A stretch of 64,000 nt of DNA from Lewinella sp. 4G2 (GTDB taxonomy: Bacteria > Bacteroidota > Bacteroidia > Chitinophagales > Saprospiraceae). The notes beneath the pieces were generated by a model. It worked only from the letters and a program-made list of their open reading frames with translations, was not told the origin of the DNA and searched no databases. The stretch spans positions 1 to 64,000 of the forward strand of contig NZ_LVWJ02000014.1 of the NCBI RefSeq assembly GCF_001625015.1, read 5' to 3'. Numbering within the stretch: the stretch's first letter is position 1; each line of letters begins with the position of its first letter. Of this stretch, positions 7,965 to 64,000 are shown in pieces. The position numbers and the translations under genes were made by a program.

Positions 7965-7981
7965 GGCGCTGCCGCGGGTGC
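7965..7981 (+). repeat. Dispersed 17-mer (intergenic)
   Basis: Exact GGCGCTGCCGCGGGTGC in the divergent spacer between pyrH and the lipoprotein gene at 8075. Confidence 0.85.
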
Positions 7982-8074
7982 GGAGTAAGTAGGGGCCTAA
8001 AAGACATACCTTCGCCACCGGATCGACGTTAGTCATTAGGGACGATTACCTGACACCCGAAAACCGTACTCACT

Positions 8075-8620
8075 ATGTACAAAGCGCTAAGCCTGCTCCT
8101 GCTCCCCCTCATCTTCCTGAGTGCGGGTTGTGGTTCGGATAATCTGGGAGACCGCCTCTTCGAGGTGCAATATCCCGTCATCGAATTCCCCATCCCCGCC
8201 GGCCAGAGCCGCATCCAGCAATTCGTAGTGGCGGACCCCAGCGTGGCAACGCGATTCCAGGAAGAAATGCAACGTGCCGGCGTCACTGCGGACGACATCG
8301 ACCTCGTCGGCGGCCTCCGCGCCCGCGTCACCTCACTGACCGGTGACGATTTCAGCGAGTTTGAACGTATGGAACTCCGCGTTTGCCCCGTCGGCCAGTC
8401 CGGTGGCTGCGACCAATTCGACCTCCTCTTCAGTGTGGACGATCTCTTCCGCCGCCGTCAGGTTCGCGTCGATCTTAACCCCGGCCTCCGCAACTTGAAG
8501 GATATCTTCCTCGGTGAACGGATGCGCGTAGAATTAATCCTTGTCGCTGGAGATTTTAGTAGCGTAGCCCTCGATGCTCGGCTGGAGTGGTCGGTACAGG
8601 CAGTAGGGAACTTGGAGTAG
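8075..8620 (+). CDS. Hypothetical lipoprotein
   Basis: A 181-aa protein with a lipoprotein signal peptide: hydrophobic segment LLLLPLIFLSAGC with the lipobox Cys at about residue 19, so it is probably anchored in the outer or cytoplasmic membrane. The mature part is beta-rich and acidic with two Cys (RVCPVGQSGGCDQF, residues ~110-123) that could form a disulfide. I recognise no family. A TACCTTCG element at 8009-8016 would give a ~55-nt leader. The ATG at 8075 directly precedes the signal peptide. The next gene follows after an octamer palindrome. Confidence 0.8.
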   Translation: MYKALSLLLLPLIFLSAGCGSDNLGDRLFEVQYPVIEFPIPAGQSRIQQFVVADPSVATRFQEEMQRAGVTADDIDLVGGLRARVTSLTGDDFSEFERMELRVCPVGQSGGCDQFDLLFSVDDLFRRRQVRVDLNPGLRNLKDIFLGERMRVELILVAGDFSSVALDARLEWSVQAVGNLE

Positions 8621-8624
8621 TTTG

Positions 8625-8685
8625 ATAGTCGGGTAGTCGGGTAGTGCGGCCTACCAGACTACGCTACTACCCGACTACGCTACTA
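8625..8685. repeat. Palindromic array of 8-bp units
   Basis: Left half TAGTCGGG repeated, right half ACTACGCT ACTACCCG ACTACGCT, mutually complementary. It occupies almost the whole gap between the lipoprotein and esterase genes and ends six bases before the esterase -7 element. Confidence 0.75.
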
Positions 8686-8705
8686 AATACTACCTTCGCC
8701 GGACC

Positions 8706-9782: not shown

Positions 9783-9804
9783 CTGTTGAATTGAACTACA
9801 GTGC

Positions 9805-10224
9805 CTCCGGCGGTTGCCAGGGAGTAAGCGGAGGAGGTAGAGAAACTGAGGTTTTTTCCGTTAATAATGACCACTGCAGAGGAGCATTTCTGTTTCGCAG
9901 GAGTCGGGGAGGTTGGAAAGAAGGAGAGGCCTGCGGCGCTTGCTTCACCCCGTCCCGAAGGGCCGGCCTGCGTAGCGATGGCACACCGTTAGGTGGCCCA
10001 TTCTACTTGATAGTCTCCGGCGGTTGCCAGGGAGTAAGAGGAGGAGGTAGAGAAACTGAGGTTTTTTCCGTTAATAACGACTACTGCAGGGGAACAATTC
10101 TGTTTCGCAGGAGTCGGGGAGGTTGGAAAGAGGGAGAGGCCTGCGGCGCTTGCTTCACCCCGTCCCGAAGGGCCGGCCTACGTAGCGATGGCACACCGTC
10201 AGGTGGCCCATTCTACTTCGTAGC
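9805..10224. repeat. Tandem duplication of a 210-bp sequence
   Basis: Two head-to-tail copies (9805-10014 and 10015-10224), about 95% identical by eye. Differences cluster in the segment after CCGTTAATAA. Each holds a purine-rich stretch (GGAGGAGGTAGAGAAACTG), a T6 run and a G+C-rich part (CCCGTCCCGAAGGGCCGGCC). The unit is 70 codons long, so an accidental frame stays open through both copies, but the peptide is low-complexity and I do not call it a gene. It could be a structured RNA or a non-autonomous repeat. Confidence 0.85.
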
Positions 10225-10263
10225 TTGCGGGTTGTTTGTGGTAAACAGGCACCACAGCCCACC

Positions 10264-10575
10264 CTACTTAATCACCACCTCCTCCAAATAATCTTCCCCA
10301 AACTCCTTATTCAACCGGTCACGGATGCCGGCGCGAACGGTAATCATCTGTGCCCGTAGCGGGGCATTAGTGACGTACACGTACAGCTTACGGTTACGGA
10401 CCATCAGGTTTTTGGTGTTGTCCGCCACGTGTTTGCCGAAGAATTCTTCCCAGACCAACTTGGTGCGTGCGCGGAAGTAGCCCGCTTCGTTTTCCTTGGT
10501 GGAACGGAGCATCTGCAGGAAGGCATCCTTCAGGGTAACGGTATCCTTATTACGGGGGTCCTTCTTTTTTCTCAT
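10264..10575 (-). CDS. DUF721 (DciA-like) protein
   Basis: A basic 103-aa protein (KDTVTLKDAFLQMLRS..., KLYVYVTNAPLRAQM..., IRDRLNKEFGEDYLEEVVI) with the layout of the DUF721 family. Longer members of this family (DciA) load the replicative helicase in many bacteria. Its ATG overlaps the recF TGA (ATGA), so the pair is translationally coupled, a common arrangement for DUF721 genes and a hint of a role in DNA replication. The helicase-loader role is inferred from the family and not visible in the sequence. Confidence 0.85.
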   Translation of the reverse strand: MRKKKDPRNKDTVTLKDAFLQMLRSTKENEAGYFRARTKLVWEEFFGKHVADNTKNLMVRNRKLYVYVTNAPLRAQMITVRAGIRDRLNKEFGEDYLEEVVIK

Positions 10576-11693: not shown

Positions 11694-11750
11694 GGCACGA
11701 AGGTTTTGTAATGCGGCTCGCTGATTCTTCAGCTTAAATGGTAACGGAAA

Positions 11751-12764
11751 TTAAATCGTTCCGTTCCCCTCGCGGTAAACGACGGCCGTGACGACCTGGC
11801 CGACGGCCCGAAGGGTTTCCTTATCAATCACATCCAAGTCATCATCGCCAGTGTGCCAGTGGGCCACGAAACCGGTTTTGGTGTCCTTTCGGAAATTAAT
11901 GATGTCGATCATCGGAATGCGGGCGATCGTATTGACGAAGTAGTGGTCATCCGTTACGGCCTTCCCGCGCTCCCGGGGAAAATAGGGTGCGAATTTGGAC
12001 ATCGTGCTGGCCAGTCCCCACACCTTATTCACAATATCGGGAGCGTAGCGCTCGCTCACGCCTTCTACGGCAAAACGGGCGTCTTTGGCTCCTACCATGT
12101 CTAACAGAATGCCGTAACGAGGCACATTGGGGGGCAAATTTCTACTGTAGTGCTGCGCACCGAGGCCCCAGCTATTCTGGTCACCGCCGCCACCTTCCCC
12201 GTAATCTTCCGCGTCAAAGAGGACGATATCGACGCCAATATTCGGTGCGCTAGCACTGAGTTGGCGGGCAATCTCCAGGAGAACGCCGACGCCACTCGCG
12301 CCGTCGTCCGCGCCGTTCACTACGGCGGCGGGGTCGTTCTCCAGTTCGCTGTCGGCTACGTGGCGGGTATCGTAGTGGGCGGCCAGTAGCATCCGGTCGG
12401 CCATCTCCGGGTTGAAGCGGGCGATGATGTTGGTGCTCTCCAGTTTCGTTCCGTCGTAAGCCGTGGCGGTGAAGTTCTGCTCGATCACTTTCGCTCCGTA
12501 GTTCGCCAGTTTCTGCACCATCCATTCCTTGGCGGCTTCGTGGGCGTCCGTGTTCATCACGCGGGGCCCGAAGGCAACCTGTTTGGCTACGTAGGCGTAG
12601 GCGCTGTCGGCGTCAAATGCAGGTACCGGCACCGGTGGTAAATCTGTTCTGGGCGCTGCCGCGGGTGCAGAGGAGGTGGGAACTTCCGCATCGGATCCAC
12701 ATGCAAACAGGAGGACGACGAGCGCCAGGCCGGAGACGAATCTCAAAAGAAAGGAAAAGGGCAA
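11751..12764 (-). CDS. M28 family zinc aminopeptidase / glutaminyl cyclase-like lipoprotein
   Basis: A 337-aa exported protein: hydrophobic signal with lipobox LLFACGS (Cys ~22), a low-complexity linker, then an M28 domain. Metal ligands are visible as AHYDTRH, DGASG, DAEDYGEGGGG, and a C-terminal His in VAHWHTGDDDLD. Fold and motif order resemble M28 peptidases and bacterial glutaminyl-peptide cyclotransferases, which cannot be told apart here. Start is TTG at 12764, behind a TATCTTTG at 12793-12786. A dispersed 17-mer encodes APAAAP in the linker (12652-12668). Confidence 0.88.
   Translation of the reverse strand: MPFSFLLRFVSGLALVVLLFACGSDAEVPTSSAPAAAPRTDLPPVPVPAFDADSAYAYVAKQVAFGPRVMNTDAHEAAKEWMVQKLANYGAKVIEQNFTATAYDGTKLESTNIIARFNPEMADRMLLAAHYDTRHVADSELENDPAAVVNGADDGASGVGVLLEIARQLSASAPNIGVDIVLFDAEDYGEGGGGDQNSWGLGAQHYSRNLPPNVPRYGILLDMVGAKDARFAVEGVSERYAPDIVNKVWGLASTMSKFAPYFPRERGKAVTDDHYFVNTIARIPMIDIINFRKDTKTGFVAHWHTGDDDLDVIDKETLRAVGQVVTAVVYREGNGTI
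12652..12668 (+). repeat. Dispersed 17-mer (in M28 lipoprotein gene)
   Basis: Exact GGCGCTGCCGCGGGTGC; read from the minus strand it encodes APAAAP in the linker after the lipobox. Confidence 0.85.
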
Positions 12765-13857: not shown

Positions 13858-13985
13858 GCTTGGAGTTTTCTTTCTCCAACTACCTGCACGGACCTTCTGT
13901 TCTGGGCTCAGAATTGTTATGCCCTAAAACTTCGCGGATAGGAGTTCGCTTCTGGAGTTTGTTGGCTATGACCGCGTTACTTTTT

Positions 13986-14490
13986 AGGTTTCGCAAAGAA
14001 GTATAAGGTGATTAAGAAGATAGAGAAGTTGGCTACCGCGTGCTTCTCGCTACTCTAGCCTCTCTTCCGCCTTAATCTCCTTTGCGAAACGATAGCCAAC
14101 TCTGAGGCAAGTTAGGTTTCGCAAAGAAGCATAAGATGATTAAGAAGATAGAGAAGACGTTCAGGCTACCGCAAGTATCTCTCATCTCTATCCTCATCTT
14201 CCGCCATAATTTCCTTTGCGAAACGATAGCCGACTCTGAGGCGAGATAGGTTTCGCAAAGAGGTATAAGATGATTAAGAAGATAGAGAAGACGTTCAGGC
14301 TACCGCAAGTATCTCTCATCTCTATCCTCTCTTCCGCCATAATTTCCTTTGCGAAACGATAGCCGACTCTGAGGCGAGATAGGTTTCGCAAAGAGGTATA
14401 AGATGATTAAGAAGATAGAGAAGACGTTCAGGCTACCGCAAGTATCTCTCATCTCTAGCGTCTCTTCCGCCTTAATCTTCTTTGCGAAAT
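13986..14490. repeat. Four tandem ~130-bp hairpin units
   Basis: Units begin at 13986, 14114, 14248 and 14381 (periods 128, 134, 133) with AGGTTTCGCAAAG. Each ends in CTTTGCGAAA, the inverse of its start, enclosing purine-rich (AAGAAGATAGAGAAG) and pyrimidine-rich (CTCTATCCTCTCTTCCGCC) halves that can pair partly. Units 2-4 are almost identical, unit 1 more diverged. Spacers between units read ATAGCCGACTCTGAGGCGAGAT. The array fills the gap between the CHAT gene and the cupin gene. Not CRISPR: units are contiguous and palindromic with no unique spacers. Confidence 0.9.
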
Positions 14491-14523: not shown

Positions 14524-16533
14524 CTATCCCTTCCTCTTGCTTCCACGCCCCATCCACCAAACGAATACGCCACCAAATAAACCTCCGACGACCCCAAAAA
14601 TACTGAGCTGAAATCCCCCCTCCTCACCCGGCACCTGCGGCAGCGCCCTTCCGGAAAAACTCGCCGTAGCCCAGTAGTGTGGATGTTGGTATTTACCATT
14701 GAGGAGTTGCGCCCGGGCGGCACTCAGCGCGGCATCCCGCGGAAGACCCGCCTTTGAGTTCGCATAAAAAGCCTCCAGTAGGGCCGACCGGGATTCACCT
14801 GAAACCGGCCACTGAGTTGCGATCACGGAATTGACGCCGGCCGCCAAAAAAGCGTTGGCTAGCGGCTCTCCGTCTACCCGCGGGTCACTGAGCTCCGCCG
14901 AAAAACCGTGAAGGACGAGGAGGTCATTCATGAGGTCAAGTGCAGCGATATCCGCAAAGGAAAGCGCCTGCTCGACGCTGGTTTCCTCCGCCGACGGCGC
15001 AAAACTGAGGTAGGACTGGGACGGCGCAAAAACTTCCGCACCGCTCACCTCGAGTTCGACCACCCGGGCACTACTGGCGATAGCGATGAACTCCTCCCGC
15101 AGGTAATTATCATCCGTGCGGAAAGCAGTGGAGCTACCAGTTGAAGCAGCCGGAGTTGATGCCGGAGTGAACTGTAGAAAGTCGTAATCGTAAGCCTCCC
15201 GCTGCGGTGGCTCCTCCAGCAAAATGGCGGAAGAACGGGCCCGCTGCAACGCACGGCCCACCCCCAGATAAGGTAAGTCCCCAAACTCCGCCACGGCCGG
15301 TGCGTCGGGGCTCACCAGACACGAAAAGGGCACCGCGTGCAGCGGACCGTCGGGCAGTAGGAGAAGATTACCCGTACCTTCTATAAGGTCCCCAAAAAGT
15401 TGGCCGTAGAGGTTGGTCGATAGGTCCCGGAACCGGGCCAACTCTTCCGCGGAACCCGAACCCGGATCGCTAAGGGTGCGGCGGAAGGCCGCTACCGCCC
15501 TCCCCAGATTCTCGGCCGGAGGCAGGCGCCGGTAGGCAACCGTATCCGCATTCGGATGGATGATGAAGACGTGGCTCGCATCCGCCCCAACGTGAAAGGA
15601 GACCAGGGTTTTATCAGCGGTTTCCAAAGCGGGCAAAATGGATCGGCCGGGGGGAGGTGTGACTTCGCGCAATGACATCTTCTCCCGCCCGTGCCGGAGG
15701 CGCTCGACTTGCGCCCGGGCCGCCTCCAAACCACTGGCAGAACCAGACCCGCCCGCGGATAACTCGGTGATGCGTTGCTCCAGCCGGCGAATGGTGTGAG
15801 CCCGCTCGCTGGGCGACCGGCGTAAATTTTCCCGGTGGCCGTAGATCTTCCCCCGCTCGCTGAGGGCGAAGGCATCCCACAGTAAAGAAGCGTCGCCGGA
15901 AGTCAGGGATTGGTCGACTAGCATCGTAACGGCGGCGTCGTAATACTGGCGGATATTTTGGCCGGGGTAAGCGTCCAGTTCTTCCGCACTCAGGCTTTGG
16001 CGGCGCTGGTCTTCGAGCAGGAAGAGTAATTCGTAATCGAGAAAAGCCTCCAGCGGGCGGTTGGAATTTGCCAGCAACGTTGCTCGGTTACCGAGTAGAA
16101 TGGTCGCCTCGGCGAATTGCCGCCCGTGAATGCTATCCGGGTGCGGCCGCGGCAGGCCCCGATGGATGCCCCAGTAGAAAGAATTGAGCCCCTCGTTGAA
16201 CGCAGCCAGGGCTTCGAATTGATCACCCGCGGCGAGGGCCAAACTACCCCGCAGGTTTTCTACGACGGGGAGGAACTCGGGGCGAGTTTCCGAAAAAGCT
16301 TCTTTGGCCAAATCCGCATTCAACCTGGCCTGGCCCACCTTCCCGGCCCGGTGGTAAGCCTGGGCGAGCTGCAGGTGAAGGGTGCCCAGTTTGACTTCAT
16401 CCGGTGTAGCGGACTGGTTCAACTCACTGACTTGATTCTCCAATTGTTGCAGCCGCTGCTCACCCTGGCTCCACGCGGAAGCCGGAAGAGCAAGTAAGAG
16501 GAAGAGCAACGAAGCAAGAAAATTGGTGCGCAT
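14524..16533 (-). CDS. CHAT-domain-like protein with TPR region, membrane-anchored
   Basis: A 669-aa protein: signal peptide (residues 1-20), a helical tetratricopeptide-like region (~30-290), a coiled segment (~270-310), a C-terminal CHAT-like domain (~330-620) and a C-terminal membrane helix followed by basic residues (WWMGRGSKRKG). The CHAT core is recognisable (LLLLPDGPLHAVPFSCL, ANAFLAAGVNSVIATQWPVS), but the positions that normally carry the catalytic His (HFATHG) and Cys (SACETG) read VELEVSG and LHGFSAEL, so it looks inactive as a protease. The ATG at 16533 is chosen because it starts the signal peptide; the longer frame would overlap dapD's promoter region. Confidence 0.85.
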   Translation of the reverse strand: MRTNFLASLLFLLLALPASAWSQGEQRLQQLENQVSELNQSATPDEVKLGTLHLQLAQAYHRAGKVGQARLNADLAKEAFSETRPEFLPVVENLRGSLALAAGDQFEALAAFNEGLNSFYWGIHRGLPRPHPDSIHGRQFAEATILLGNRATLLANSNRPLEAFLDYELLFLLEDQRRQSLSAEELDAYPGQNIRQYYDAAVTMLVDQSLTSGDASLLWDAFALSERGKIYGHRENLRRSPSERAHTIRRLEQRITELSAGGSGSASGLEAARAQVERLRHGREKMSLREVTPPPGRSILPALETADKTLVSFHVGADASHVFIIHPNADTVAYRRLPPAENLGRAVAAFRRTLSDPGSGSAEELARFRDLSTNLYGQLFGDLIEGTGNLLLLPDGPLHAVPFSCLVSPDAPAVAEFGDLPYLGVGRALQRARSSAILLEEPPQREAYDYDFLQFTPASTPAASTGSSTAFRTDDNYLREEFIAIASSARVVELEVSGAEVFAPSQSYLSFAPSAEETSVEQALSFADIAALDLMNDLLVLHGFSAELSDPRVDGEPLANAFLAAGVNSVIATQWPVSGESRSALLEAFYANSKAGLPRDAALSAARAQLLNGKYQHPHYWATASFSGRALPQVPGEEGGFQLSIFGVVGGLFGGVFVWWMGRGSKRKG
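14631..14647 (-). repeat. Dispersed 17-mer (in CHAT gene)
   Basis: Exact copy, encoding ALPQV in the linker just before the C-terminal membrane helix of the CHAT-like protein. Confidence 0.85.
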
Positions 16534-19443: not shown

Positions 19444-19761
19444 CACCGTCTACCATTGATCCGATTTTGAGTGACCCCTCCTATGCGCACATCTCACATT
19501 TGGGCGCTGCCGCGGGTGCTGAGCAATTGGATCGGGCCGCCTTGGAACTAAGTAGTTAGCTAACGCCCACCGTGGCTTCCCCAAACATTGTTGGGTGGAT
19601 CAAGGGATGAGGTGGGGATAATTCCCGTTATTTGCCGCCCCTGGCCCGAATGCACTCCTTTTGGGCGAACTACCTCCCAGTCGTAGCGTTGTCAGGACAA
19701 TGGACCTTCACCGTAACGGTGGAACAACTCGAATTACCCAAACCAAACATTTTCCCAGCCG
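19444..19761. other. Intergenic region before citrate synthase
   Basis: 318 bp without a gene. It contains one exact dispersed 17-mer (19503-19519). I see no clear TAnnTTTG element and no terminator. Confidence 0.6.
19503..19519 (+). repeat. Dispersed 17-mer (intergenic)
   Basis: Exact GGCGCTGCCGCGGGTGC between the SpoIIM-like and citrate synthase genes. Confidence 0.85.
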
Positions 19762-23094: not shown

Positions 23095-23111
23095 GCACCT
23101 GCGGCAGCGCC
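23095..23111 (-). repeat. Dispersed 17-mer (intergenic)
   Basis: Exact reverse-orientation copy, extended on both sides as CCTGGCACCTGCGGCAGCGC, between the tonB terminator and the TPR gene. The rest of the 210-bp spacer shows no clear element. Confidence 0.85.
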
Positions 23112-25028: not shown

Positions 25029-25095
25029 TAGTCGGGGAGTACTTAGTCGGGTAGTCGGGTAGTACGTACTACACTACTACCCGACTACGCTACTA
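25028..25095. repeat. Palindromic array of 8-bp units between convergent genes
   Basis: Left half holds TAGTCGGG-type octamers, right half CTACCCGA / CTACGCTA, complementary around GTACGTAC. The TPR stop codon abuts one end and the fumC TAG lies inside the other, so it probably acts as a bidirectional hairpin. Its unit is the same as the array at 8625-8685. Confidence 0.75.
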
Positions 25096-28230: not shown

Positions 28231-28752
28231 CTATTGCTCGGCCAGGTAATTGGCGACCATTTCCTGGACTACGTCCTTCAGGTACATCTTTCGATCCTTT
28301 GCCTGTTCTTTCAGCGTTACCAAGTGCGCTTTATTGAAGACCAACGTCACCCGCTTGGTATCGGGAGCGCGTGGTTTCTCCCGTTCGGCCATCTCTTCTT
28401 TGCTGATGGTAGAACGAATAAGTAGGTCCAGCCCCGTTTTCCTTCGTCTGCGGGGCGCTGCCGCAGGTGCAGTGCGGCGGGACTTGGGAGCGCTGTCAGT
28501 GGAAGACGTACCCCCACTAGCTCTGTCCATATCTAATGACATGAAGGCATCCAGGTCGGCGGTAAACTTCTTGCTGGAGAGTTTCTTCTTTGCCTTGGAG
28601 GAGCGGACGGGCACCTCAATTTCTACCGTCTCTTCGTCCTTGGCGTCGGCTCCGGCCACCTCGTCGCTACCCCCACCGTAGTTGAGGTCCGTACCGGGGT
28701 ACGGATTATCGAAAAGGTCGTTCAGGTCCGCGGTGAAGCGTTTCTTGGCCAT
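28231..28752 (-). CDS. ParA-partner protein with C-terminal ribbon-helix-helix-like domain
   Basis: A 173-aa basic protein, 9 bp downstream of parA. The C-terminal ~45 residues (KRVTLVFNKAHLVTLKEQAK...LKDVVQEMVANYLAEQ) have a strand followed by two helices, as in ribbon-helix-helix or DUF3408-like DNA binders. The first 125 residues are low-complexity and probably disordered, and carry one short motif twice: KKRFTADLNDLF (residues 3-14) and SKKFTADLDAFM (~60-71). These resemble the N-terminal ParA-contacting motif of ParB (GLGRGLDALL), so it may be the DNA-binding partner of a partition-like system. No family name can be given with certainty. Confidence 0.7.
   Translation of the reverse strand: MAKKRFTADLNDLFDNPYPGTDLNYGGGSDEVAGADAKDEETVEIEVPVRSSKAKKKLSSKKFTADLDAFMSLDMDRASGGTSSTDSAPKSRRTAPAAAPRRRRKTGLDLLIRSTISKEEMAEREKPRAPDTKRVTLVFNKAHLVTLKEQAKDRKMYLKDVVQEMVANYLAEQ
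28454..28470 (+). repeat. Dispersed 17-mer (in ParA-partner gene)
   Basis: Exact GGCGCTGCCGCAGGTGC, encoding APAAAP in the disordered linker of the protein on the minus strand. Confidence 0.85.
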
Positions 28753-33608: not shown

Positions 33609-34689
33609 CTATTGATCACCGTTTACAAAGGCATTGACTCGCTCTACCGCATTTTCTCGGACATTCACGTAAAAGAGATTGTAATCACCGATGTGGTAAT
33701 TCTTCGTTCGGAAGAAGATATCTCCAAAAAACCGTGGCTTACTCGTAAATAGTCCAGCGCCCCTAATTTCTGCCGATACCAGATCGGGCTTAGGGCCTTT
33801 ATTAAAATTCAGTAATACCCCTCCCTTATTCAGGCTGGCATCTGCTACCTCGGGCCGTGTCGTCCAAGTCAGCGGATTAACAACAGCAATGTTCTCTACC
33901 GTATCCCGGTAGCCGGGCCTGGGTTCGAAATCCTCCCGGTAGGTGCGCCAGCTCACGAAGCAGCCAGTCTGCGTAGCGTTCTGGCAAACGGGGATGGTAG
34001 CATAAGCATCAGCGGAGACTGGCATACCTACCAGGTAGGTAAGCGGCCACCAATTGTTGCTGGAGTGGCTTTCCATCAAACCGGTCCCGCAGCAATCGCT
34101 TAGCGTGGGTCGTCCCTTGGCTATGTCCGGCAATGATGATGGGCCGGCCGTTATTATGATTTTTTAAGTAATAATCAAAGGCCCGCAGAATATCATCGTA
34201 AGCGATATCTAACGCGCGTTTGGCCATTTTTCTACCTTCGGAATAATATACTTTTAAATTCGCCTGCCGGTACCGCGGGGCGTATATCTTGCCCGCAGCA
34301 TTGAAAATACTCGCCTGGTTTTTAATGGATCCATCATCCACCGCTTCGTTGATTTCCAGATCGTATACGTTCGCGTTCCAATCCGTGCTGGATTCGGTGG
34401 TATTACGGTAGTGCGTAGGGTGCAGAAAGAATACGTCCGCCCGCGCATTCGCTTGTTGATCTTGCAATTGGTCACCCGGAGTCAGGTCCGCATAATCTTC
34501 CGTCGTCGGTAAAGCTGCCCAGTTAGCTGGTGAGGCATATTCTGGTGGAGGTGGCACGGGAAATGACCCGTTCGCGGGGAGTTTAGGGGCGCTGCCGCAG
34601 GTGCTAAGCAATAGGAAAAGGGGCAGCGCACAAAGCCGAAGAAATAACCGGAGTTCGGATCGGTATGCGTTTAAATTACAGAACCTCAT
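33609..34689 (-). pseudogene. DUF3089 lipoprotein, frameshifted
   Basis: An alpha/beta-hydrolase-like lipoprotein split over two frames. The first part (34689 to about 34040) has a lipobox (LLLSTCGS) and the nucleophile motif IIIAGHSQGTTHAKRLL; the second frame continues with YLVGMPVSADAYATIPVCQN...GCFVSWRTYREDF to 33609. The break is at a tandem 4-bp duplication, AGGTAGGT on the plus strand (34033-34040); removing one AGGT restores AYLVGMPV as one frame. So it is a recent disruption, a phase-variable site, or a sequencing error. A dispersed 17-mer forms the codons of the lipobox. Intact product would be about 358 aa. Confidence 0.85.
34588..34604 (+). repeat. Dispersed 17-mer (at the lipobox of the DUF3089 gene)
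   Basis: Exact GGCGCTGCCGCAGGTGC; on the minus strand it encodes TCGSA, including the lipidated Cys. Confidence 0.85.
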
Positions 34690-34952: not shown

Positions 34953-36182
34953 TCACGCTAATTGGTCTCCCAATATCCTAACGGCACGTATTACCTCCTC
35001 CTCGGTGGCGTAAAGTGGGGCCGGAGCTAAGCGGAGTACGCCACCTTCACTCCCCCGAAGGTTATCCTCTCGGTAATCCACTACCAAAGCAGCTTCGGAC
35101 AACTGTTCCTCCAAATCCGGACGGTGGCCGGGTACGTAAACCGAAAGCTGGGCGCCCCGTGCCTGTGGGTCGGCCGGTGTGAGGATCGTCAACCCATTAA
35201 TGGCAGCAATACCGTCGTATAGTTGCTGCGTGAGTAATTCACTGCGCTTGCGGAGGGCACTCATCCCACCAGCTTCCGCGAATAGGGGAAGCGACGCCAA
35301 CAATGGCGCCATCCCCAAAACGGGAACGGTTGATACTTCCCAACCCGCCGCACCGCGCTCGGGCCGAAATTCCCGCCGCATTTGAAAACGGTCCGATTGC
35401 CGGTGGCCCCACCAACCGGCAAAGCGGGGAAGGGAATCGTCCTCGGCGTGGCGTTCGTGGACGAAAAGCCCACCGGGAGCCCCCGGGCCACCATTCAGGT
35501 ATTTATAGTTACACCATACGGCAAAGTCCACCCCCCAATCGTGGAGGTGCAACGGAACATTTCCGGCGGCGTGAGCCAAATCAATCCCCACCCTGGCACC
35601 CGCGGCAGCGCCCGCATCCGCAATGGCCTGGATGTCAAAAAACTGACCGGTATAGTAATGAATACCACTCCAGAGGACGAGCGCCAGCTCCTCCCCCACT
35701 CCCTCGATCTGAGTGACGATATCTTCGGTACGGATCGTCCATTCACCAGCGCGAGGGGCGACCTCGATGAGGCAGTCATCCGGATTCAGGCCGTGGAACT
35801 TCAACTGGCTAATGATGGCGTGCTGATCACTAGGGAAGGCACCAGCCTCCATAATAATCTTGCGGCGTTTTCCGGTGGGACGGAAGAAGGAGACCATCAA
35901 CAAATGCAGATTAACCGTGAGCGCGTTGGCGACCGTGACCTCCTCCGGGTGGGCACCAACGATGTTCGCCAACCCATGCCGGGCGCGGGCGGAATACCCC
36001 AACCACCCACCTGCGGGGCCGCCCCACCAACCTTCAACGGCGCGTTCCCGCCACGTACTTAACTCAGTATCTAATTGGTCCGCTACGGCCTTTGGTTGAG
36101 GACCAAGACTGTTGCCGCAGAGGTAGATTTTATCCGGAGGAAGGTGGAAACGGTCGCGAAGCATAATCGGGGAATTTCCCAC
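34953..36182 (-). CDS. kynU: Kynureninase
   Basis: PLP enzyme cleaving kynurenine to anthranilate and alanine in tryptophan breakdown or NAD synthesis. The 409-aa protein shows IYLCGNSLGPQPKAV, VTVANALTVNLHLL, GIDLAHAAGNVPLHLHDWGVD and the PLP-Lys segment WCNYKYLNGGPG, all kynureninase hallmarks. Start is GTG 36182 or ATG 36164; an in-frame stop lies just upstream, so the N-terminus is slightly shorter than in many homologues. A dispersed 17-mer (35596-35612) encodes GAAAG in a helix. Likely co-transcribed with ogt. Confidence 0.93.
   Translation of the reverse strand: MGNSPIMLRDRFHLPPDKIYLCGNSLGPQPKAVADQLDTELSTWRERAVEGWWGGPAGGWLGYSARARHGLANIVGAHPEEVTVANALTVNLHLLMVSFFRPTGKRRKIIMEAGAFPSDQHAIISQLKFHGLNPDDCLIEVAPRAGEWTIRTEDIVTQIEGVGEELALVLWSGIHYYTGQFFDIQAIADAGAAAGARVGIDLAHAAGNVPLHLHDWGVDFAVWCNYKYLNGGPGAPGGLFVHERHAEDDSLPRFAGWWGHRQSDRFQMRREFRPERGAAGWEVSTVPVLGMAPLLASLPLFAEAGGMSALRKRSELLTQQLYDGIAAINGLTILTPADPQARGAQLSVYVPGHRPDLEEQLSEAALVVDYREDNLRGSEGGVLRLAPAPLYATEEEVIRAVRILGDQLA
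35596..35612 (-). repeat. Dispersed 17-mer (in kynU)
   Basis: Exact (R = G form), encoding GAAAG in the helix before the PLP-binding GIDLAHAAGN segment. Confidence 0.8.
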
Positions 36183-38874: not shown

Positions 38875-39810
38875 TTACAGGAGCGAATCCAGCACGGCTT
38901 GGGCGGCCCAGGTGCGGTTGTTTGCTTGCTGAAGTACGAGCGAGCGTTCGCCACTGATCACGCCGTCGGTCACCACTACGCCGCGGCGGACCGGTAGGCA
39001 ATGCATGAAGTAAGCATTGTTGGTTAGGGCCATCTTTTCTTCGTCCACGATCCAGTCGTCGTACTCATTAGTCGTAGCGCCGTAGTTGTCGTAGGCGGAC
39101 CAGTTCTTGGCGTAGACGAAATCTGCATCCGCAAAGGCGGCGCGCTGGTCGTGGGTGACGATTTCTTTGGGCGCAAACGCAGGTGCGAGGTTAAAACCGG
39201 GGGGATTGGCGATCGTCAGTTCGACCTCTCCCCAGGCCTGCATCCACTGCACAAAACTATTGGACACACACTGGGGTAAACGACGGGGGTGTGGCGCCCA
39301 GGTAAGGACCACCTTCGGCCGGGGGACCGGCCGGTGTTCCGCGATGGTCAGACAATCCGTCAAACTCTGCAGGGGGTGCAACGTCGCCGATTCCAGGCTG
39401 ACGACCGGTACCGAAGCGTACTTCACGAAGGACTTGATAATGCGGTCTTCGTAATCTGCCACCCGGTCCTCCAGTGAGGGGAAGGAGCGAACGCACAGTA
39501 CGTCGCAGTACTGGCTCAGTACGCCGGCTGCTTCCCGGACGTGTTCGGCGGTGTTACCGTTCATCACCGTACCATCTTCAAATTCGATACCCCAACCGCC
39601 ACTGGCGTCGTAGGTGATGACGTCCGCCCCAAGTTGCCTGGCGGCCTTTTCGGTACTCATCCGCGTGCGGAGGGAGGAATTGAAGAAGAGGTTGATGACC
39701 ATCTTACGTTCACCACTTCGTTTTCCGAAGGGATCTTGCTTGAAAGCCTTTGCTTTGGCAATGAGGGTGTTGATGTTGGTCACATCGTCAGCAGAAAGGA
39801 ACTGTTTCAT
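38875..39810 (-). CDS. argF': N-acetyl/N-succinylornithine carbamoyltransferase
   Basis: Bacteroidota-type transcarbamylase acting on an N-acylated ornithine in arginine synthesis. The 311-aa protein has the carbamoyl-phosphate motif FFNSSLRTRMS, ADVITYDASGGWGIEFEDGTVM, SLESATLHPLQSLTD and the HCLPVRRGV segment. Whether the acyl group is acetyl or succinyl depends on a loop residue that I cannot decide by eye. ATG overlaps the ABM stop (ATGA). Confidence 0.93.
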   Translation of the reverse strand: MKQFLSADDVTNINTLIAKAKAFKQDPFGKRSGERKMVINLFFNSSLRTRMSTEKAARQLGADVITYDASGGWGIEFEDGTVMNGNTAEHVREAAGVLSQYCDVLCVRSFPSLEDRVADYEDRIIKSFVKYASVPVVSLESATLHPLQSLTDCLTIAEHRPVPRPKVVLTWAPHPRRLPQCVSNSFVQWMQAWGEVELTIANPPGFNLAPAFAPKEIVTHDQRAAFADADFVYAKNWSAYDNYGATTNEYDDWIVDEEKMALTNNAYFMHCLPVRRGVVVTDGVISGERSLVLQQANNRTWAAQAVLDSLL

Positions 39811-40091
39811 AGCTCGTAATAATCAACGGTGGGGAAGGTATCGTAAAATGGGTGGAGGAGGGCCGACCAGGTTTTGTACTCATCACTGTTGCGAAACCCT
39901 TCCGTATGGTGGGCGAGTGACGTCCATTCAATCAGGAGGACAAACTCACCTTCCGCCCCGACTTTTGGTAGGAGGCGGGCGCCGTGGCATCCGTCCTGAC
40001 ACAGCACCTGCGGCAGCGCCCGCTTAAAGGCTGCGAGATAGGCGGGTACGCGAGCGGGGTCGATTTCGATCAAAACATGCTCGAGGATCAT
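39807..40091 (-). CDS. Antibiotic-biosynthesis monooxygenase (ABM)-domain protein
   Basis: A 94-aa ferredoxin-like protein: MILEHVLIEIDPARVPAYLAAF at the start, LLIEWTSLAHHTEGFRNSDEY in the middle. This is the ABM/quinol monooxygenase pattern; members are often putative quinol monooxygenases. It is coupled by 4-bp overlaps to argD upstream and argF' downstream, so it is an integral part of the arginine operon, though no role there is known. ATG 40091 is chosen for the overlap and family start. A 17-mer (40004-40020) encodes ALPQV in a helix. Confidence 0.8.
   Translation of the reverse strand: MILEHVLIEIDPARVPAYLAAFKRALPQVLCQDGCHGARLLPKVGAEGEFVLLIEWTSLAHHTEGFRNSDEYKTWSALLHPFYDTFPTVDYYEL
40004..40020 (-). 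repeat. Dispersed 17-mer (in ABM gene)
   Basis: Exact copy encoding ALPQV of the ABM protein. Confidence 0.85.
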
Positions 40092-44238: not shown

Positions 44239-44255
44239 GGCGCTGCCGCAGGTGC
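44239..44255 (+). repeat. Dispersed 17-mer (intergenic)
   Basis: Exact GGCGCTGCCGCAGGTGC, 40 bp upstream of the arginine operon -7 element and before the T9SS gene terminator. Confidence 0.85.
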
Positions 44256-47677: not shown

Positions 47678-47749
47678 TAGACCTACAAGGACTCGAACCT
47701 TGAACGACAGAACCAAAATCTGTTGTGTTGCCAATTACACCATAGGTCT
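47678..47749 (-). tRNA. tRNA-Gln (anticodon TTG)
   Basis: Minus strand cloverleaf: acceptor AGACCTA / TAGGTCT, T8, D arm with A14-A15, anticodon stem CAGAT around TTTGGTT (anticodon TTG), T arm AAGG-TTCGAGT-CCTT. Discriminator A; CCA is not encoded. 72 nt. Confidence 0.95.
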
Positions 47750-51304: not shown

Positions 51305-52084
51305 TCACCGCGCCAAAACACCCGCACGGGCGGCTCCGACGATCCGCTGGTCCGTCGTCCGCTGCGCTAGCAGCACCACTTCCAATCCATCGGTGTTCAG
51401 ACCTTCTGGCACGGATAATTCAATCGTGCCTTCTTTCCTGGCCGGCTCGTGTTCGAGGGCCCGGACGACGTTGACGTGGCTGAGCTCCCGCCCCCGGTTT
51501 TCTCCGCGGTTAACGGAGGAATGAGCTTCGGTTTGCACCAGGGCGGCGCTCACCCGTAAGTCTTCTCCAACGGTAGCCAATTGGTACTGCACCCGTAGCT
51601 CATCCCCCCGTCGTTCTACACTTGTAGTCCCGAACGCTAGTGGAAGGGGTACCTGTTTTGCGGCGGCCACGAGCGCCCGCACTTCTTTTTCTCGGCTGCC
51701 TACGGTTTCCTTCCGCCCATTCACCACCAGTTGGGGCGTATAGGTGCGGGAGCGTAGCTGATCCGTATAATCCCGCTGCCGGGCGCTGTACCAAGGACTG
51801 CTGAAGGGGTCTTCCCAACCCAGGTAGTTCCAGTAATCTACGTGAAAGGAAAGGGCCAGCACTCCCTCCTCTCTGGCCAGTTCTCCCAGTAGACGATCCG
51901 CCGAAGGGCAGCTACTACAGCCCTGGCTGGTAAATAATTCCAGTACGGCAATGCCTTTGGAAGCCTCGTGCGTCGTGTCGTACACCATTTCGGGCGCTGC
52001 CGCAGGTGCCGGGTCAGGACTGAAATACAGGACCGCCATTAACCAGATAGGTAGCGATGCAAGTAGGAGCGTGACGTTTTTCAT
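51305..52084 (-). CDS. DUF1223 thioredoxin-like secreted protein
   Basis: A 259-aa protein with an N-terminal membrane/signal segment (residues ~3-20) and the DUF1223 core: VLELFTSQGCSSCPSADRLLGEL with a C-x2-C redox pair, LSFHVDYWNYLGWEDPF, and YTPQLVVNGR. Probably a periplasmic thiol protein; substrate unknown. ATG 52084 precedes the signal segment. A 17-mer (51993-52009) encodes APAAAP in the linker behind it. Confidence 0.88.
   Translation of the reverse strand: MKNVTLLLASLPIWLMAVLYFSPDPAPAAAPEMVYDTTHEASKGIAVLELFTSQGCSSCPSADRLLGELAREEGVLALSFHVDYWNYLGWEDPFSSPWYSARQRDYTDQLRSRTYTPQLVVNGRKETVGSREKEVRALVAAAKQVPLPLAFGTTSVERRGDELRVQYQLATVGEDLRVSAALVQTEAHSSVNRGENRGRELSHVNVVRALEHEPARKEGTIELSVPEGLNTDGLEVVLLAQRTTDQRIVGAARAGVLAR
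51993..52009 (+). repeat. Dispersed 17-mer (in DUF1223 gene)
   Basis: Exact copy, extended as CGGGCGCTGCCGCAGGTGCC; encodes APAAAP after the signal segment. Confidence 0.85.
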
Positions 52085-52267: not shown

Positions 52268-52284
52268 GCACCTGCGGCAGCGCC
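52268..52284 (-). repeat. Dispersed 17-mer (intergenic)
   Basis: Exact reverse copy in the ~290-bp divergent spacer DUF1223 / Wzz, only 275 bp from the previous copy. The spacer also holds a TACCTTTG at 52347-52354 for the Wzz gene. Confidence 0.85.
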
Positions 52285-57308: not shown

Positions 57309-58039
57309 CAGCCCAGTGGTTTTTTCTTCGATTTGGTCACGAAGGGAGGGTTCAGGTAAGCGGGCTCGTACGTCGCGCTATCCACGATCCGGGAATAAGC
57401 GGGCGCTGCCGCGGGTGCCAGAAGAAAGGTAGCGCGGCAAGTATCGGGCGCCAAAAATTGGACCGGAGCTCCAGTGGGAAGCATTTCCTGTACTCTTTGT
57501 TGGCCGGGGCCGGTGACCGTAATTGCTGCCCCTCCAACAACTTCTAGGAGGTCCTCCAACCACGTCTCTTCGGTCAGGATAATGTTTTGTGGGTTTACCC
57601 AGTAGCCAGCGGACCGATCCGATTCCCCATCACCTGGCACCTGCGGCAGCGCCCCGAGATCGTACAACTGGCCGTATACCTGGCCCCTGCGGGAATTGAT
57701 GGTGGGCAGAACCAAGCCAGTGTGGCCAGTGGCGAGCGCCAACGCACTCAGCGTAGGAACCACCCGCAACTGAAGCCCGGGCAGGGCTAAGCAAAGTCCC
57801 TTCGCCGTAGCGGCCCCGACGCGCAGCGAAGTGTAACTCCCCGGCCCATCGCTGAGGACAACCTCTTGCAATTGCTGAAGGTTAATACCGGCTTGTTCCG
57901 CCACTTGGCGAATGAACAGCGTCAGGTGAGAGGCGTGTTGAAAGGGATCCGCGGACGTATGTTCCGCCAGGATCTCGCCGGCCTGCGCGATGGCGACCGA
58001 GCAGACGTCCGTCGCCGTTTCCAGGAGTAATTGAGTCAT
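57308..58039 (-). CDS. tsaB: tRNA threonylcarbamoyladenosine biosynthesis protein TsaB
   Basis: Partner of TsaD in t6A37 tRNA modification, normally essential. The 243-aa protein shows LLETATDVCSVAIAQ, HASHLTLFIRQV and the conserved DGPGSYTSLRVGAATAKGLCLAL. Two copies of the dispersed 17-mer are inside: one encodes ALPQV in an insertion-like loop (residues ~129-133, after GQLYDLG), the other APAAAP (~207-212). ATG overlaps the stop of the upstream gene (ATGA). Confidence 0.93.
   Translation of the reverse strand: MTQLLLETATDVCSVAIAQAGEILAEHTSADPFQHASHLTLFIRQVAEQAGINLQQLQEVVLSDGPGSYTSLRVGAATAKGLCLALPGLQLRVVPTLSALALATGHTGLVLPTINSRRGQVYGQLYDLGALPQVPGDGESDRSAGYWVNPQNIILTEETWLEDLLEVVGGAAITVTGPGQQRVQEMLPTGAPVQFLAPDTCRATFLLAPAAAPAYSRIVDSATYEPAYLNPPFVTKSKKKPLG
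57402..57418 (+). repeat. Dispersed 17-mer (in tsaB, copy 1)
   Basis: Exact (R = G), encoding APAAAP near the C-terminus of TsaB. Confidence 0.85.
57637..57653 (-). repeat. Dispersed 17-mer (in tsaB, copy 2)
   Basis: Exact, opposite orientation to copy 1 and in a different reading frame (ALPQV). Confidence 0.85.
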
Positions 58040-58359
58040 GGAAGGAGTTCGATCGGGTCCCAGAATAGGTCTTTAAAGTTGTCCACTTTATCGTCGGTGA
58101 CGGAGATGCCTTCCTCCTCCAGCCGTTCCTGCATGGTGGTGGGCGTAGGGAAAGCGTTGCGGCCGCTCAACTCCCCCTTGCGGTTGAGGACGCGGTGGGC
58201 CGGCACGTCTTCGCCCGGCATACACTTGTTCATTGCCCAACCTACCATCCGGGCGCTGCCGAGGGTAAGAAAGCTCGCAATGGCACCGTAGGTCGTCACC
58301 CGCCCGCGGGGGATGGATCTGGCTACGTCGTGTACGTCTAGAATGTATTGGGCTGGCAA
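58036..58359 (-). CDS. Alkyltransferase-like protein (ATL)
   Basis: A 107-aa DNA-binding protein related to methylguanine methyltransferase: IPRGRVTTYGAIASFL, GSARMVGWAMNKC and PAHRVLNRKGELSGR. The acceptor Cys of PCHR is replaced by Ala (PAHR), the mark of ATL proteins, which flag alkylated bases for nucleotide excision repair rather than removing the alkyl group. Start is TTG 58359. Coupled to tsaB by ATGA overlap. Confidence 0.92.
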   Translation of the reverse strand: MPAQYILDVHDVARSIPRGRVTTYGAIASFLTLGSARMVGWAMNKCMPGEDVPAHRVLNRKGELSGRNAFPTPTTMQERLEEEGISVTDDKVDNFKDLFWDPIELLP

Positions 58360-58433: not shown

Positions 58434-58443
58434 TGAACTGCTT

Positions 58444-60324: not shown

Positions 60325-60353
60325 AAAATGTAGAGTTCAGTTGTGGCCCTTAG

Positions 60354-60412: not shown

Positions 60413-60534
60413 GCCCACGGGCCAATTGGATAAATTCAACCACCGCTTATCCGGGATTAGTCGATATTTACCAGCCACAAAAGTAACCAAAACCGTCGGG
60501 TTGCTGACTTTACTCCGACCTCCCCTACCCCATT

Positions 60535-60960: not shown

Positions 60961-61001
60961 AAAGGGTCAGTTCAGGGCCGTCAATAGATACCGAAAACTA
61001 A

Positions 61002-61475: not shown

Positions 61476-61594
61476 ACGGCAATTAACGTCAAAGAAACGA
61501 AGGGGTTGTCCGTCAGCAACTGAACAACCAGTACTCAGGATGCCGTATTTCCATCATCTGGCGGTTAGCCTTCGCGGGAAACCCAAACTTAGGT

Positions 61595-62593
61595 TCACTG
61601 CCGTGGCAGGGCCATCCGACTACGGGCGACCTTAGATTCAGTTGGCTCCGGAGTCGTTACGAGCTCTCCCCGAAACACTTCCCGGATACGGTAGGGCCGC
61701 TTATCCTGGCTTTCGTAGTAGGTACGCATCAGTACTTCAACGATGATGCCCACCGTAATGAGTTGGATCCCCCCCAAAATCAGCACCGCCCCCAAAATGA
61801 GGATCGGCCGGCCCCAGACGTCCTGACCCATGATCTTTAGGGCTAACAAGTACAGGTTGATGATGGCGCCGAGCACGAACAGAACCATCCCCGACTGAGC
61901 AAACAAGTGCATCGGTTTCTGGAGATACTTCTTGAAGAAGAGCATGAGCATCAGATCGCTCACCACTTTGAAAGTACGACCGAGACCATACTTACTTACC
62001 CCAAACTGCCGGGCGTGGTGGCGCACCGGGATCTGGGTGATCCGCGCGCCTTCTAGGCTGGCCAGGACGGAGATAAAGCGGTGGAGTTCTCCGTAAATGC
62101 CCATATCCTTGGCAATCTCGGAACGGAACAACTTCAGCGCACAACCATAGTCACGCAAGTGCACGCCACTCAGGTTTCTGATGATCCAATTGGCGATGCG
62201 GGAGGGGATCTTCCGGAGGAGGGCGCCATCCTGACGGTTGACGCGTTCCCCGACCACGAGGTCCCAATTCTCCGCTTCCAGGAGTTGGAGCATGGCGGGG
62301 AGATCGAGCGGATCGTTTTGCAGGTCGCCATCCATGGTGGCGATGTAGGTCCCGCGGGCGACGTCGATACCGGCCATGAGGGCCAGGGATTGACCGTAGT
62401 TTTTGCGAAACTCTACGATGACGAGGCGCGGATCATCCAGGCTGCGCAGTTCCGCAACGGTACCGTCCGTACTTCCGTCGTCCACGTAGATGATTTCGTA
62501 GTCGAGGCCCACGAGCGCGGCGTTGATCCGCTCCACGAGGGGGCGAATATTCTCACGTTCATTGTAGACGGTGACGATTACGGACAACTGCAT
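61595..62593 (-). CDS. Glycosyltransferase family 2 (polyprenyl-phosphate sugar synthase-like)
   Basis: A 332-aa enzyme: GT-A domain with VTVYNERENIRPLVERI, YVDDGSTDGT, MDGDLQNDP (metal-binding) and DYGCALKLF, followed by two C-terminal membrane helices. This is the dolichol/undecaprenyl-phosphate mannose or arabinose synthase group (DPM1/ArnC-like). The start is set at ATG 62593 because TATCTTTG-CGGC directly precedes it, a leaderless-type start. It likely supplies the lipid-linked sugar to the GT39-like protein next to it. Confidence 0.92.
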   Translation of the reverse strand: MQLSVIVTVYNERENIRPLVERINAALVGLDYEIIYVDDGSTDGTVAELRSLDDPRLVIVEFRKNYGQSLALMAGIDVARGTYIATMDGDLQNDPLDLPAMLQLLEAENWDLVVGERVNRQDGALLRKIPSRIANWIIRNLSGVHLRDYGCALKLFRSEIAKDMGIYGELHRFISVLASLEGARITQIPVRHHARQFGVSKYGLGRTFKVVSDLMLMLFFKKYLQKPMHLFAQSGMVLFVLGAIINLYLLALKIMGQDVWGRPILILGAVLILGGIQLITVGIIVEVLMRTYYESQDKRPYRIREVFRGELVTTPEPTESKVARSRMALPRQ

Positions 62594-62597
62594 GCCG

Positions 62598-62605
62598 CAA
62601 AGATA
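62598..62605 (-). promoter_or_regulatory. Promoter -7 element of the GT2 gene, leaderless geometry
   Basis: Minus strand TATCTTTG ending 4 nt before the GT2 ATG (62593). Confidence 0.55.
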
Positions 62606-62673
62606 GAAGGTATTCGCCGCTACCAGTTTGCCGGTTATCAATCGCCAACAAGGTGGATGCGTACCACCGCGTT

Positions 62674-64000
62674 TTATTCGTCGCCGGGCTTCAGGGTGCC
62701 CATCCCGTCCATCATGCCGCCCAAGCCCATCCGGGCGCGGTCGGTCGGTGGGATTGCAAAGGGCCCGATAGGGTAACTACTTCGGTGGTGGCGGAGGTAG
62801 ACGCTGTCGACGGCTTCCACTTTGATATCGGGGTACTGCCAGGGAGAGGTCAGGTACAATGTCTTATCGTCAAATCCTTCCCAAATACGCGGGATGATGG
62901 CACCGCGGGCTTGCGTCAGGTAATAGCCCGTGGCCGGTTCAATTAGGGAATAGCCGTAGATGGCTACTTGGTCCTCTTTAGTCGTTTCCATGGCAGCCAC
63001 GGCGGTTTTGCGGACGGCGATTCCGCGTTCGTCACCCGCCGCCCTTGGGGGGAGTACGAAGAAGTTGAAGGCCACCCGGGCAATCAACAGAAACACCGCC
63101 ACGTGGAGGAGGTACCCGCGTTGGCGCTTCCATCCGGTCCACACCACCGCACCCGCGGCAGCGCCCAAGAGAATGCTTTTAAGCCAGGCGTAGCTCACGA
63201 TTGCCGTCTCCGGCACGAGCGGTACGAAGGGCAGTGCAATAGCAATAACCGACATCGTGCCCAGCAGCAGATAACGAAGGCTCCGGTAGGTCAGGGTGCG
63301 CTGCCGCAGGTGCTGGGTGTGTAGGTAGAGGCAGCTGCCGAAGAGAAGGGGAAACAGCATGAGCAAGTACCGGGGGTAAACGTTGGGTGATAACCAATAA
63401 ATAGGCAAATTGGCCAGGAACGCCACCAGGCAGAAGGCGGCAAAATTATTGGTTTTTAACCGCGCCCAACTACCTCGCTGGAGGAGATAGGCCAGCAGGA
63501 GCGTCCACGGCAAAAAGTGATAACTCATTTCGAATGGGAAGCCCGCTACGTGCGCCACGTTTTCCCAAATGGAGTGTGCCGCCGCGGTGCGTTTGCCAGA
63601 TTCCAGGAAGAGCCGATCCACCACCAACGACAGATCTACGTACTGACTGTATTGCCAGTAATATAGGCTGAGCAGGGCCACGCAGGCCACCCCGGATAGC
63701 AAGTGAGCCGGACGGATGAACTGCTTCCAGGCCTTCACCCAGGTCAGCAACGCAAAGATGGTCACCCCCTGAAAGACGATGGCCGGCAAACCCTTCAGCA
63801 TGAAACCGACCGCCGTGAGGCCATAACTCCAGGCGAAGGCGCGCCACCATTGCCCCTTGCTGCCGTATTCGTAAAGCAGCATGATCTGTGCGTACACCAC
63901 CCAGCTGAAGGTGACGTCGATTAAGCCGAGCATGCTGTCCCAAAAGAGCATCCGCCCACAGGTGACCACCGTAAGGGCGTGCAATCCAGCGAGGGAACGG
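62674..64000 (-). CDS. Glycosyltransferase family 39-like membrane protein (5' end beyond window)
   Basis: At least 436 aa, open to the window edge, so the N-terminus (including the usual first periplasmic loop with Asp residues) is missing. About nine membrane helices, then a periplasmic C-terminal domain. The segment GRMLFWDSMLGLIDVTFSW and the overall layout match the ArnT/PMT-type family that moves sugars from polyprenyl phosphate. Two dispersed 17-mers lie inside (63149 encoding GAAAG, 63297 encoding HLRQR). Paired with the GT2 gene. Confidence 0.85.
   Translation of the reverse strand, partial: RSLAGLHALTVVTCGRMLFWDSMLGLIDVTFSWVVYAQIMLLYEYGSKGQWWRAFAWSYGLTAVGFMLKGLPAIVFQGVTIFALLTWVKAWKQFIRPAHLLSGVACVALLSLYYWQYSQYVDLSLVVDRLFLESGKRTAAAHSIWENVAHVAGFPFEMSYHFLPWTLLLAYLLQRGSWARLKTNNFAAFCLVAFLANLPIYWLSPNVYPRYLLMLFPLLFGSCLYLHTQHLRQRTLTYRSLRYLLLGTMSVIAIALPFVPLVPETAIVSYAWLKSILLGAAAGAVVWTGWKRQRGYLLHVAVFLLIARVAFNFFVLPPRAAGDERGIAVRKTAVAAMETTKEDQVAIYGYSLIEPATGYYLTQARGAIIPRIWEGFDDKTLYLTSPWQYPDIKVEAVDSVYLRHHRSSYPIGPFAIPPTDRARMGLGGMMDGMGTLKPGDE
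63149..63165 (-). repeat. Dispersed 17-mer (in GT39-like gene)
   Basis: Exact (R = G), encoding GAAAGA within a membrane helix. Confidence 0.8.
63297..63313 (+). repeat. Dispersed 17-mer, one mismatch (in GT39-like gene)
   Basis: TGCGCTGCCGCAGGTGC differs only at the first base; encodes HLRQR in a cytoplasmic or loop segment. Confidence 0.75.

Follow-up and report, generated by a model that had tools for sequence, protein, structure and literature searches.

A genome-wide spaced repeat with species dialects in the genus Neolewinella, a candidate self-recognition sequence for DNA uptake

The window analysed here, which is the first 64,000 nucleotides of contig NZ_LVWJ02000014.1 of Lewinella sp. 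4G2 (GCF_001625015.1), contains 15 exact copies of the 17-mer GGCGCTGCCGCRGGTGC, a repeat that is present in hundreds of copies in the whole genome, is confined to the genus Neolewinella and shows species dialects at orthologous sites, in genomes that encode ComEC and DprA. The repeat is probably a self-recognition sequence of the DNA-uptake type, read by a receptor other than a pilin. An aminotransferase encoded in the window, read as ArgD from its neighbours, shows 86% identity to Neolewinella antarctica and 83% to N. agarilytica, and the genus of the organism was therefore taken as Neolewinella (Saprospiraceae, Bacteroidota).

Copies in the window and in the whole genome

The own genome (5,213,657 bases in 21 contigs) has 614 exact copies, 305 on one strand and 309 on the other, and none of the reversed pattern that served as control, so that the genome-wide count proposed as a check in the initial annotation of the window lies far above background. 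The density is 0.12 per kb for exact copies, while GGCGCTGNCGCRGGTGC has 0.20 per kb. In 20 samples of 20 kb each, taken along the 4.17-Mb contig, the number of sites is 2 to 6 (mean 4.1, variance 1.15, lower-tail P 0.0009), with both strands represented in 19 samples, and no depletion or enrichment and no relation to GC skew was seen among these 20 samples. All 16 pairs of neighbours with less than 600 bp between them are inverted; ten of these pairs face each other and six diverge. The largest gap in each of two long blocks contains giant genes (one of 6,456 residues; two of 2,151 residues).

The coding share is 84% of the sequence by our home-made gene calls, which also underlie the mismatch analysis, yet only 88 of 169 sites are genic and 81 are outside genes. 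The genic copies are read in several frames, giving the peptides TCGSA (26), GAAAGA (22), APAAAP (20), ALPQV (15) and HLRQR (5), with RCRRC at zero, and the element settles wherever the encoded protein can tolerate it. In 924 kb, GGCGCTGNCGCRGGTGC gives 184 perfect matches and 40, 22 and 43 with one, two and three mismatches, the corresponding numbers for its reversed control being 0, 3, 16 and 129. The 40 single mismatches are confined to 7 of the 16 positions (P 1e-9 against a uniform spread), which points to a recogniser and not to random decay.

The conserved element extends over about 30 bp, with an AT-rich lead, the core GGGCG-N4-CGCRGGTGC and a purine-rich tail near RGGNAANGGG. In a flank profile built from 68 exact sites in 464 kb of the own genome the upstream preferences begin at about -7, with A or T at -7, -5 and -4 and G at -1 (75%), while the tail extends as far as about +34 and favours G at +20 (85%), A at +22 (65%) and +23 (74%), and G from +25 to +28, and the flanking preference fades within about 35 bases. 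The tail score (of 7) has a mean of 5.1 in the 88 genic and 5.9 in the 81 intergenic sites, against 2.7 after 2,325 other GGTGC words; the tail is thus retained in genic copies, indicating that the recognized word is about 30 bp long. Pairing of the ends into a small hairpin, as suggested in the initial annotation, needs C at +17, where the 68 sites have A, C, G and T in 21, 46, 24 and 10 percent, so that the fold-back is not conserved and a hairpin element was rejected.

In the window, all 15 exact copies and both one-mismatch copies (1848 and 63297) lie where they had been annotated. With up to three mismatches there are 20 matches, against a mean of 0.67 and a maximum of 3 in 100 shuffles, and the claim of an occurrence far above chance therefore holds. 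The strands are mixed, as had been noted, but the annotated split of about 9 plus and 7 minus is near to the counts without being equal to them (8 and 7 for the exact copies, 10 and 7 with the two one-mismatch copies added). Eleven copies had been assigned to genes, and when read by eye 10 or 11 are in plausible genes; none of the six frames has a stop codon, again as annotated. The copies are as follows.

981..997, minus strand: two-mismatch copy TGCGCGGCCGCAGGTGC, from the mismatch search of the window
1848..1864, plus strand: one-mismatch copy with the central bases CGGC
7965..7981, plus strand: exact copy, intergenic
12652..12668, plus strand: exact copy within an M28 peptidase gene
14631..14647, minus strand: exact copy within a CHAT-domain gene
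19503..19519, plus strand: exact copy, intergenic
23095..23111, minus strand: exact copy, intergenic
28454..28470, plus strand: exact copy within an open reading frame of 173 residues that has no Pfam match
34588..34604, plus strand: exact copy within a DUF3089 gene
35596..35612, minus strand: exact copy within a kynureninase-like gene (peptide GAAAGA), in place in N. antarctica
39170..39186, plus strand: GGCGCAAACGCAGGTGC within a carbamoyltransferase gene, in agreement with the 13-base core and retained in three of four placed relatives
40004..40020, minus strand: exact copy in a short open reading frame or spacer, in place in N. agarilytica
44239..44255, plus strand: exact copy, intergenic
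51993..52009, plus strand: exact copy within a DUF1223 gene, facing pair with 52268
52268..52284, minus strand: exact copy, facing-pair partner of 51993
57402..57418, plus strand: exact copy in a variable loop of a TsaB-like gene, antisense, facing pair with 57637
57637..57653, minus strand: exact copy in a second variable loop of the TsaB-like gene, in sense orientation, read as ALPQV
63149..63165, minus strand: exact copy within an open reading frame of 436 residues
63297..63313, plus strand: one-mismatch copy, its first base being T, within the 436-residue frame of the copy at 63149

The match at 39170 fits the genus-wide form GGCG-N4-CGCRGGTGC; a three-mismatch match at 58252 is off that form and is probably due to chance.

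Some further observations concern the distribution. A motif-free open reading frame of 6,456 residues at G000:C14:91831-111200 corresponds to the largest gap (21 kb) of the 264-kb block. Several facing pairs among the sites listed for contigs C19-C24 of the related genome G079 are 76 to 85 bases apart (for instance on C20 at 26337/26422, 39874/39953 and 45990/46067), which looks like a preferred spacing. With regard to carriage by viruses, 69 stretches of viral contigs were found to have the 18-base form, with one copy each.

Dialects and orthologous sites in related genomes

Among 298 genomes of the order the exact 17-mer was matched in 11, namely the own genome (614), 9 of the 14 other members of the genus drawn, which have between 1 and 52 copies, and a single genome from another family, which has 1. 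When up to two mismatches are allowed in the 21 genomes of the genus, the highest counts are found in G216 (1,257), the own genome (1,238) and G129 (1,236), and the lowest in G296 (26), G280 (17) and G299 (7), where the reversed controls give 28, 17 and 6 and the counts are thus background; over all 21 genomes these controls range from 6 to 65. The form GGCGCNNNCGCRGGTGC is present 1,001 times in the own genome, 589 to 1,202 times in eight others, 481 times in the 55%-complete G302 and 152 to 216 times in six genomes, and is lowest in G068 (34), G192 (26), G296 (18), G299 (5) and G280 (2), with controls of 0 to 8. Among 298 genomes of the family, the form GGGCGNNNNCGCRGGTGC is present 130 to 798 times in the six that belong to the genus (298 times in G068 and 130 in G192), and 0 to 2 times in the other 292, of which 14 have any. 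The repeat is thus over-represented in the relatives, in clade-specific types, with G280 and G299 as exceptions.

The types differ in the four central bases. In the own genome these are CTGC in 132 and CTGN in 184 of 196 sites, whereas CGGC is found in 18 of 34 sites of G216, CGGA in 4 of 11 of G079, CGGT in 4 of 9 of G298, GGGC in 7 of 13 of G303 and GGNN in 6 of 6 of G068, and a six-base spacer occurs in small numbers in G296 (5), G274 (4) and G290 (4). At the R of CGCRGG all 34 sites of G216 have A, and 7 of 9 sites of G298 have G. In a tree of the TsaB-like protein rooted with G299 (one protein, 223 columns), the eight high-copy species placed, with G167 beside them, are separate from the nine others. 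A de novo search for k-mers in four low-copy genomes, with 45 to 100 kb of each, gave related words with other central bases or another spacing in G068 and G296, and nothing clear in G280 and G299. Two other words were noted in these genomes, a palindrome CTGGAGCTCCAG in the motif-free G280 (L138-L142; 16 counts in 100 kb with both strands counted, 0.04 expected) and CTCGTCCGCCGA in G068 (L148-L152; 12 in 100 kb, 0.05 expected).

When own sites were placed in relatives by alignment of their flanks, and at most one mismatch in the 13 core bases was accepted as the motif, it was found at the same place and on the same strand in 20 of the 28 cases placed in high-copy relatives, usually with a changed spelling, and in 2 of the 27 placed in low-copy relatives. 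From the density alone 1.6% would be expected for an interval of 120 bp, 5.4% for 400 bp and 13.5% for 1 kb. The rows are not independent, as the high-copy set has 12 distinct own sites, 9 of them found in at least one relative, with the two TsaB sites and 39170 repeated most, and the 44239 site of L055, which two other comparisons showed, was missed there. All four relatives named have the motif at 44239, each with its own spelling and N. antarctica with one mismatch in the core. In 19 motif-bearing pairs the core agrees in 239 of 247 cells, the flanks in 1,731 of 2,661 and the central bases in 38 of 76; these pairs were selected for the presence of the motif, and it is the contrast between core and central bases, together with the placement counts, that carries weight. 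In these alignments the word stays in place while the dialect changes.

Two genes of the window allow a comparison of proteins with and without the motif, which the initial annotation had proposed as a way to recognize a clean insertion, and they give different pictures. In the kynureninase-like gene (site 35596) the peptide GAAAGA in ADAGAAAGARVG aligns without gaps to TKAGQAKGCYVG of solved kynureninases, which we take to be human, the record naming only the molecule; the motif should here have arisen by substitutions. In the TsaB-like protein (a label that we infer, the Pfam match being PF00814) the loops are longer in the bearers. In an alignment from 19 genomes both variable loops have a clean copy in G000, G079, G129 and G298, one clean and one imperfect copy are found in G216, G226 and G301, one copy in G206 and none in 11. 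Ten of these 11 have short loops (225–231 residues against 241–267 in the bearers), and the remaining one, G167, has long loops (265 residues) but no motif. In G298 and G216 the copy of the first loop is in another alignment column of the same loop.

Uptake machinery and rival explanations

Competence genes had been suggested as a thing to look for, and an open frame for ComEC (PF03772) was found in all 21 genomes of the genus and DprA (PF02481) in 20, the miss being the 55%-complete genome. If the repeat serves uptake, a surface receptor of the genus would prefer DNA fragments that bear the motif, ComEC would import one strand, and DprA and RecA would recombine it. Fragments with a good copy would enter more often and overwrite poor copies by homologous recombination, and good copies would accumulate evenly, on both strands, wherever they are harmless. 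With a drift in the preference of the receptor the spelling of the sites would change in place, so that each species acquires its own dialect in the central bases. Such uptake-biased recombination explains why the repeat is evenly spread, indifferent to gene content, sharp and respelled in place. The six signs that PMC1626085 lists for uptake sequences are all present: strand balance, regularity (with P 0.13 for single blocks as a caveat), inverted close pairs, spacer preference, more perfect than one-mismatch copies and over-representation in relatives. Of the candidates listed in the initial annotation the DNA-uptake-like sequence is therefore the best supported, by count, strand balance, ComEC and DprA, and dialects, and the micro mobile element is weakened.

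Several points weigh against an uptake sequence. The uptake, the receptor and the recombination drive are what we infer. ComEC and DprA, which many bacteria have and which our control genomes include in E. coli, are no proof of competence, and G280 has both yet no motif. The density of 0.12 exact copies per kb is below the approximately 1 per kb given for uptake sequences in PMC1626085. In each of the two long blocks the gap variation is below random but with P 0.13, so that the evenness is not significant in a block alone, and in 464 kb of the own genome the exact copies are 43 on plus and 25 on minus, a local excess that is absent genome-wide. Known receptors of uptake sequences are pilins, and the type IV pilin domain PF07963 was found in none of the 21 genomes but in 8 of 14 controls; a type IV minor pilin, the usual receptor, could serve here only if pilus genes had escaped the search. 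PF00437, the family of ATPases of pili and type II secretion systems, has matches with E up to 0.001 in 20 of 21 genomes, 11 of which reach its cut-off, but these matches are weak (at most 25.5 bits) and cover short parts of the 370-position profile. Three top hits were examined and rejected as pilus ATPases, being Clp-type AAA proteins with 131 to 232 bits for AAA_2 against 23 to 26 for PF00437. The open reading frames around ComEC, listed in five genomes and read by eye with no profile scan made, do not evidently share an uptake cluster. The domain DUF5689, part of a protein described as essential for transformation of Riemerella anatipestifer (PMC8459023), is present in 1 of the 21 genomes, the motif-free outgroup G299, a single case and only a hint; there, three adjacent DUF5689 domains are found in one open frame (G299:C115:8691-10592).

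A rather unlikely alternative is a chromosome-organising site, in which an abundant intracellular protein of the nucleoid, segregation or division-control type would bind the motif every few kb and co-evolve with it in each species. The even spread, the position-specific constraint, the bipartite core with spacer and tail and the close inverted pairs would all suit such a site, but the core is far longer than about 600 sites require, the 20 samples of the 4.17-Mb contig show neither depletion nor enrichment, and the motif is limited to the genus. The excess of perfect over mismatched copies is untypical of regulatory binding sites as these are treated in PMC1626085, and an intracellular protein, which explains the constraint, explains less easily how hundreds of sites are respelled in place, which is difficult unless some conversion process is at work. 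That a minute mobile element spread in the genus, like a repetitive extragenic palindromic (REP) sequence or a miniature inverted-repeat transposable element (MITE), is improbable, though less clearly so for the TsaB loops. In its favour are the consensus, which is as sharp as in young copied elements, and the inverted pairs; the motif-bearing TsaB loops are longer than those of most motif-free species, and relatives that lack a site often have a shorter interval there than the own genome. Copying fits poorly with the gap-free kynureninase peptide, with sites that stay put while their central bases change, with the uneven decay (40 single mismatches at 7 of 16 positions) or with a flanking preference that is gone within about 35 bases.

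Being frequent, genome-wide and intragenic, the repeat might also be taken for a polar signal in recombination or segregation, like Chi or KOPS (FtsK orienting polar sequence). This is very improbable and was rejected on the strand counts of 305 and 309; 19 of 20 samples have copies on both strands, and they show no relation to GC skew. The initial annotation had likewise argued against it from the lack of strand bias. The repeat is also much longer than known Chi or KOPS words. Next to no weight is left for chance or for coding sequence conserved in each gene family, although 39170 is in a well-conserved stretch of the carbamoyltransferase, as the shuffles and reversed controls are near zero for the exact word, and copies in several frames, in unrelated genes and at 81 of 169 sites outside genes are not what conserved coding sequence, named in the initial annotation as a possible refutation, would give; both were rejected on the counts.

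Apart from the repeat, the window has a 133-bp tandem repeat at 13985-14489 (3.8 copies, 92% matches), each copy with GTTTCGCAAA and its inverse, and two tandem copies of a 210-bp unit at 9805-10218 (95% matches). One inverted repeat (TAGTCGGGTAGT ... ACTACCCGACTA) is found at two distant places, 8626-8677 and 25044-25087, one end of a small-subunit rRNA gene is located at 1-96 on the minus strand, and a tRNA at 47678-47749.

Known uptake sequences and the Neolewinella word

The DNA uptake sequences (DUS) of Neisseriaceae are described as short words present in thousands of copies genome-wide, in species dialects with an invariant core that are congruent with phylogeny, one dialect having a base inserted in the core (PMC3630211). 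The Neolewinella word is similar in being short, genome-wide and divided into species dialects with a shared invariant core, but DUS are 10–12 bp long and read by the type IV minor pilin ComP (PMC3630211), while the word described here is about 30 bp with a central spacer, is sparser, and no type IV pilin was found. The uptake signal sequences (USS) of Pasteurellaceae occur in Hin and Apl subclade types that differ at a few neighbouring core positions (PMC1626085), and as that account gives them they have a strong core with flanking preferences, subclade types, no strand bias, inverted close pairs, a spacer preference and more perfect than one-mismatch copies, all of which are seen here. They differ by a 9-bp core, about 1 copy per kb and AT-rich flanks, against a core of 17–18 bp, 0.12 to 0.2 copies per kb and a purine-rich tail in Neolewinella. 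HIP1 of cyanobacteria is likewise a very frequent genome-wide word, but is described as an 8-bp palindrome linked to methyltransferases (PMC4390886), whereas the Neolewinella word is long, spaced and non-palindromic. As no pilus was found and the density is lower, both a misfit to the classical case, the repeat would work like an uptake sequence but is not filed as DUS or USS.

Within the Bacteroidota, Riemerella columbina prefers its own DNA, the k-mer analysis described in PMC7965970 counting only A/T-rich words and leaving their function open. Riemerella resembles Neolewinella in having ComEC and DprA, and an uptake machine without homology to known outer-membrane parts has been proposed for it (PMC7965970, PMC8459023). 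It differs in that these accounts establish no uptake word, and the DUF5689 of R. anatipestifer is found only in G299 among the 21 Neolewinella genomes. Uptake sequences were given as unknown outside Pasteurellaceae and Neisseriaceae in 2006 (PMC1626085), and the open-licence literature searched reports none for Bacteroidota, Neolewinella and Lewinella included, the own-DNA preference of R. columbina being nearest.

The wider claim, on which we are evenly divided, is that Neolewinella has a genuine uptake self-recognition system with dialects, as far as the literature searched shows the first outside these two families, which works without a type IV pilus through a surface receptor that reads a spaced 30-bp word. 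If this is true, the in-place respelling of hundreds of sites would be uptake-driven conversion in a second, unrelated lineage, and the same signs in a Bacteroidota genus seemingly without type IV pili would mean an independent origin of sequence-specific uptake, with another receptor. It would offer a new system for an old question, namely if receptor bias drives such repeats or a benefit maintains them. From the dialects one could predict between which species DNA is exchangeable, and the motif could be an aid in opening these marine bacteria to genetic work.

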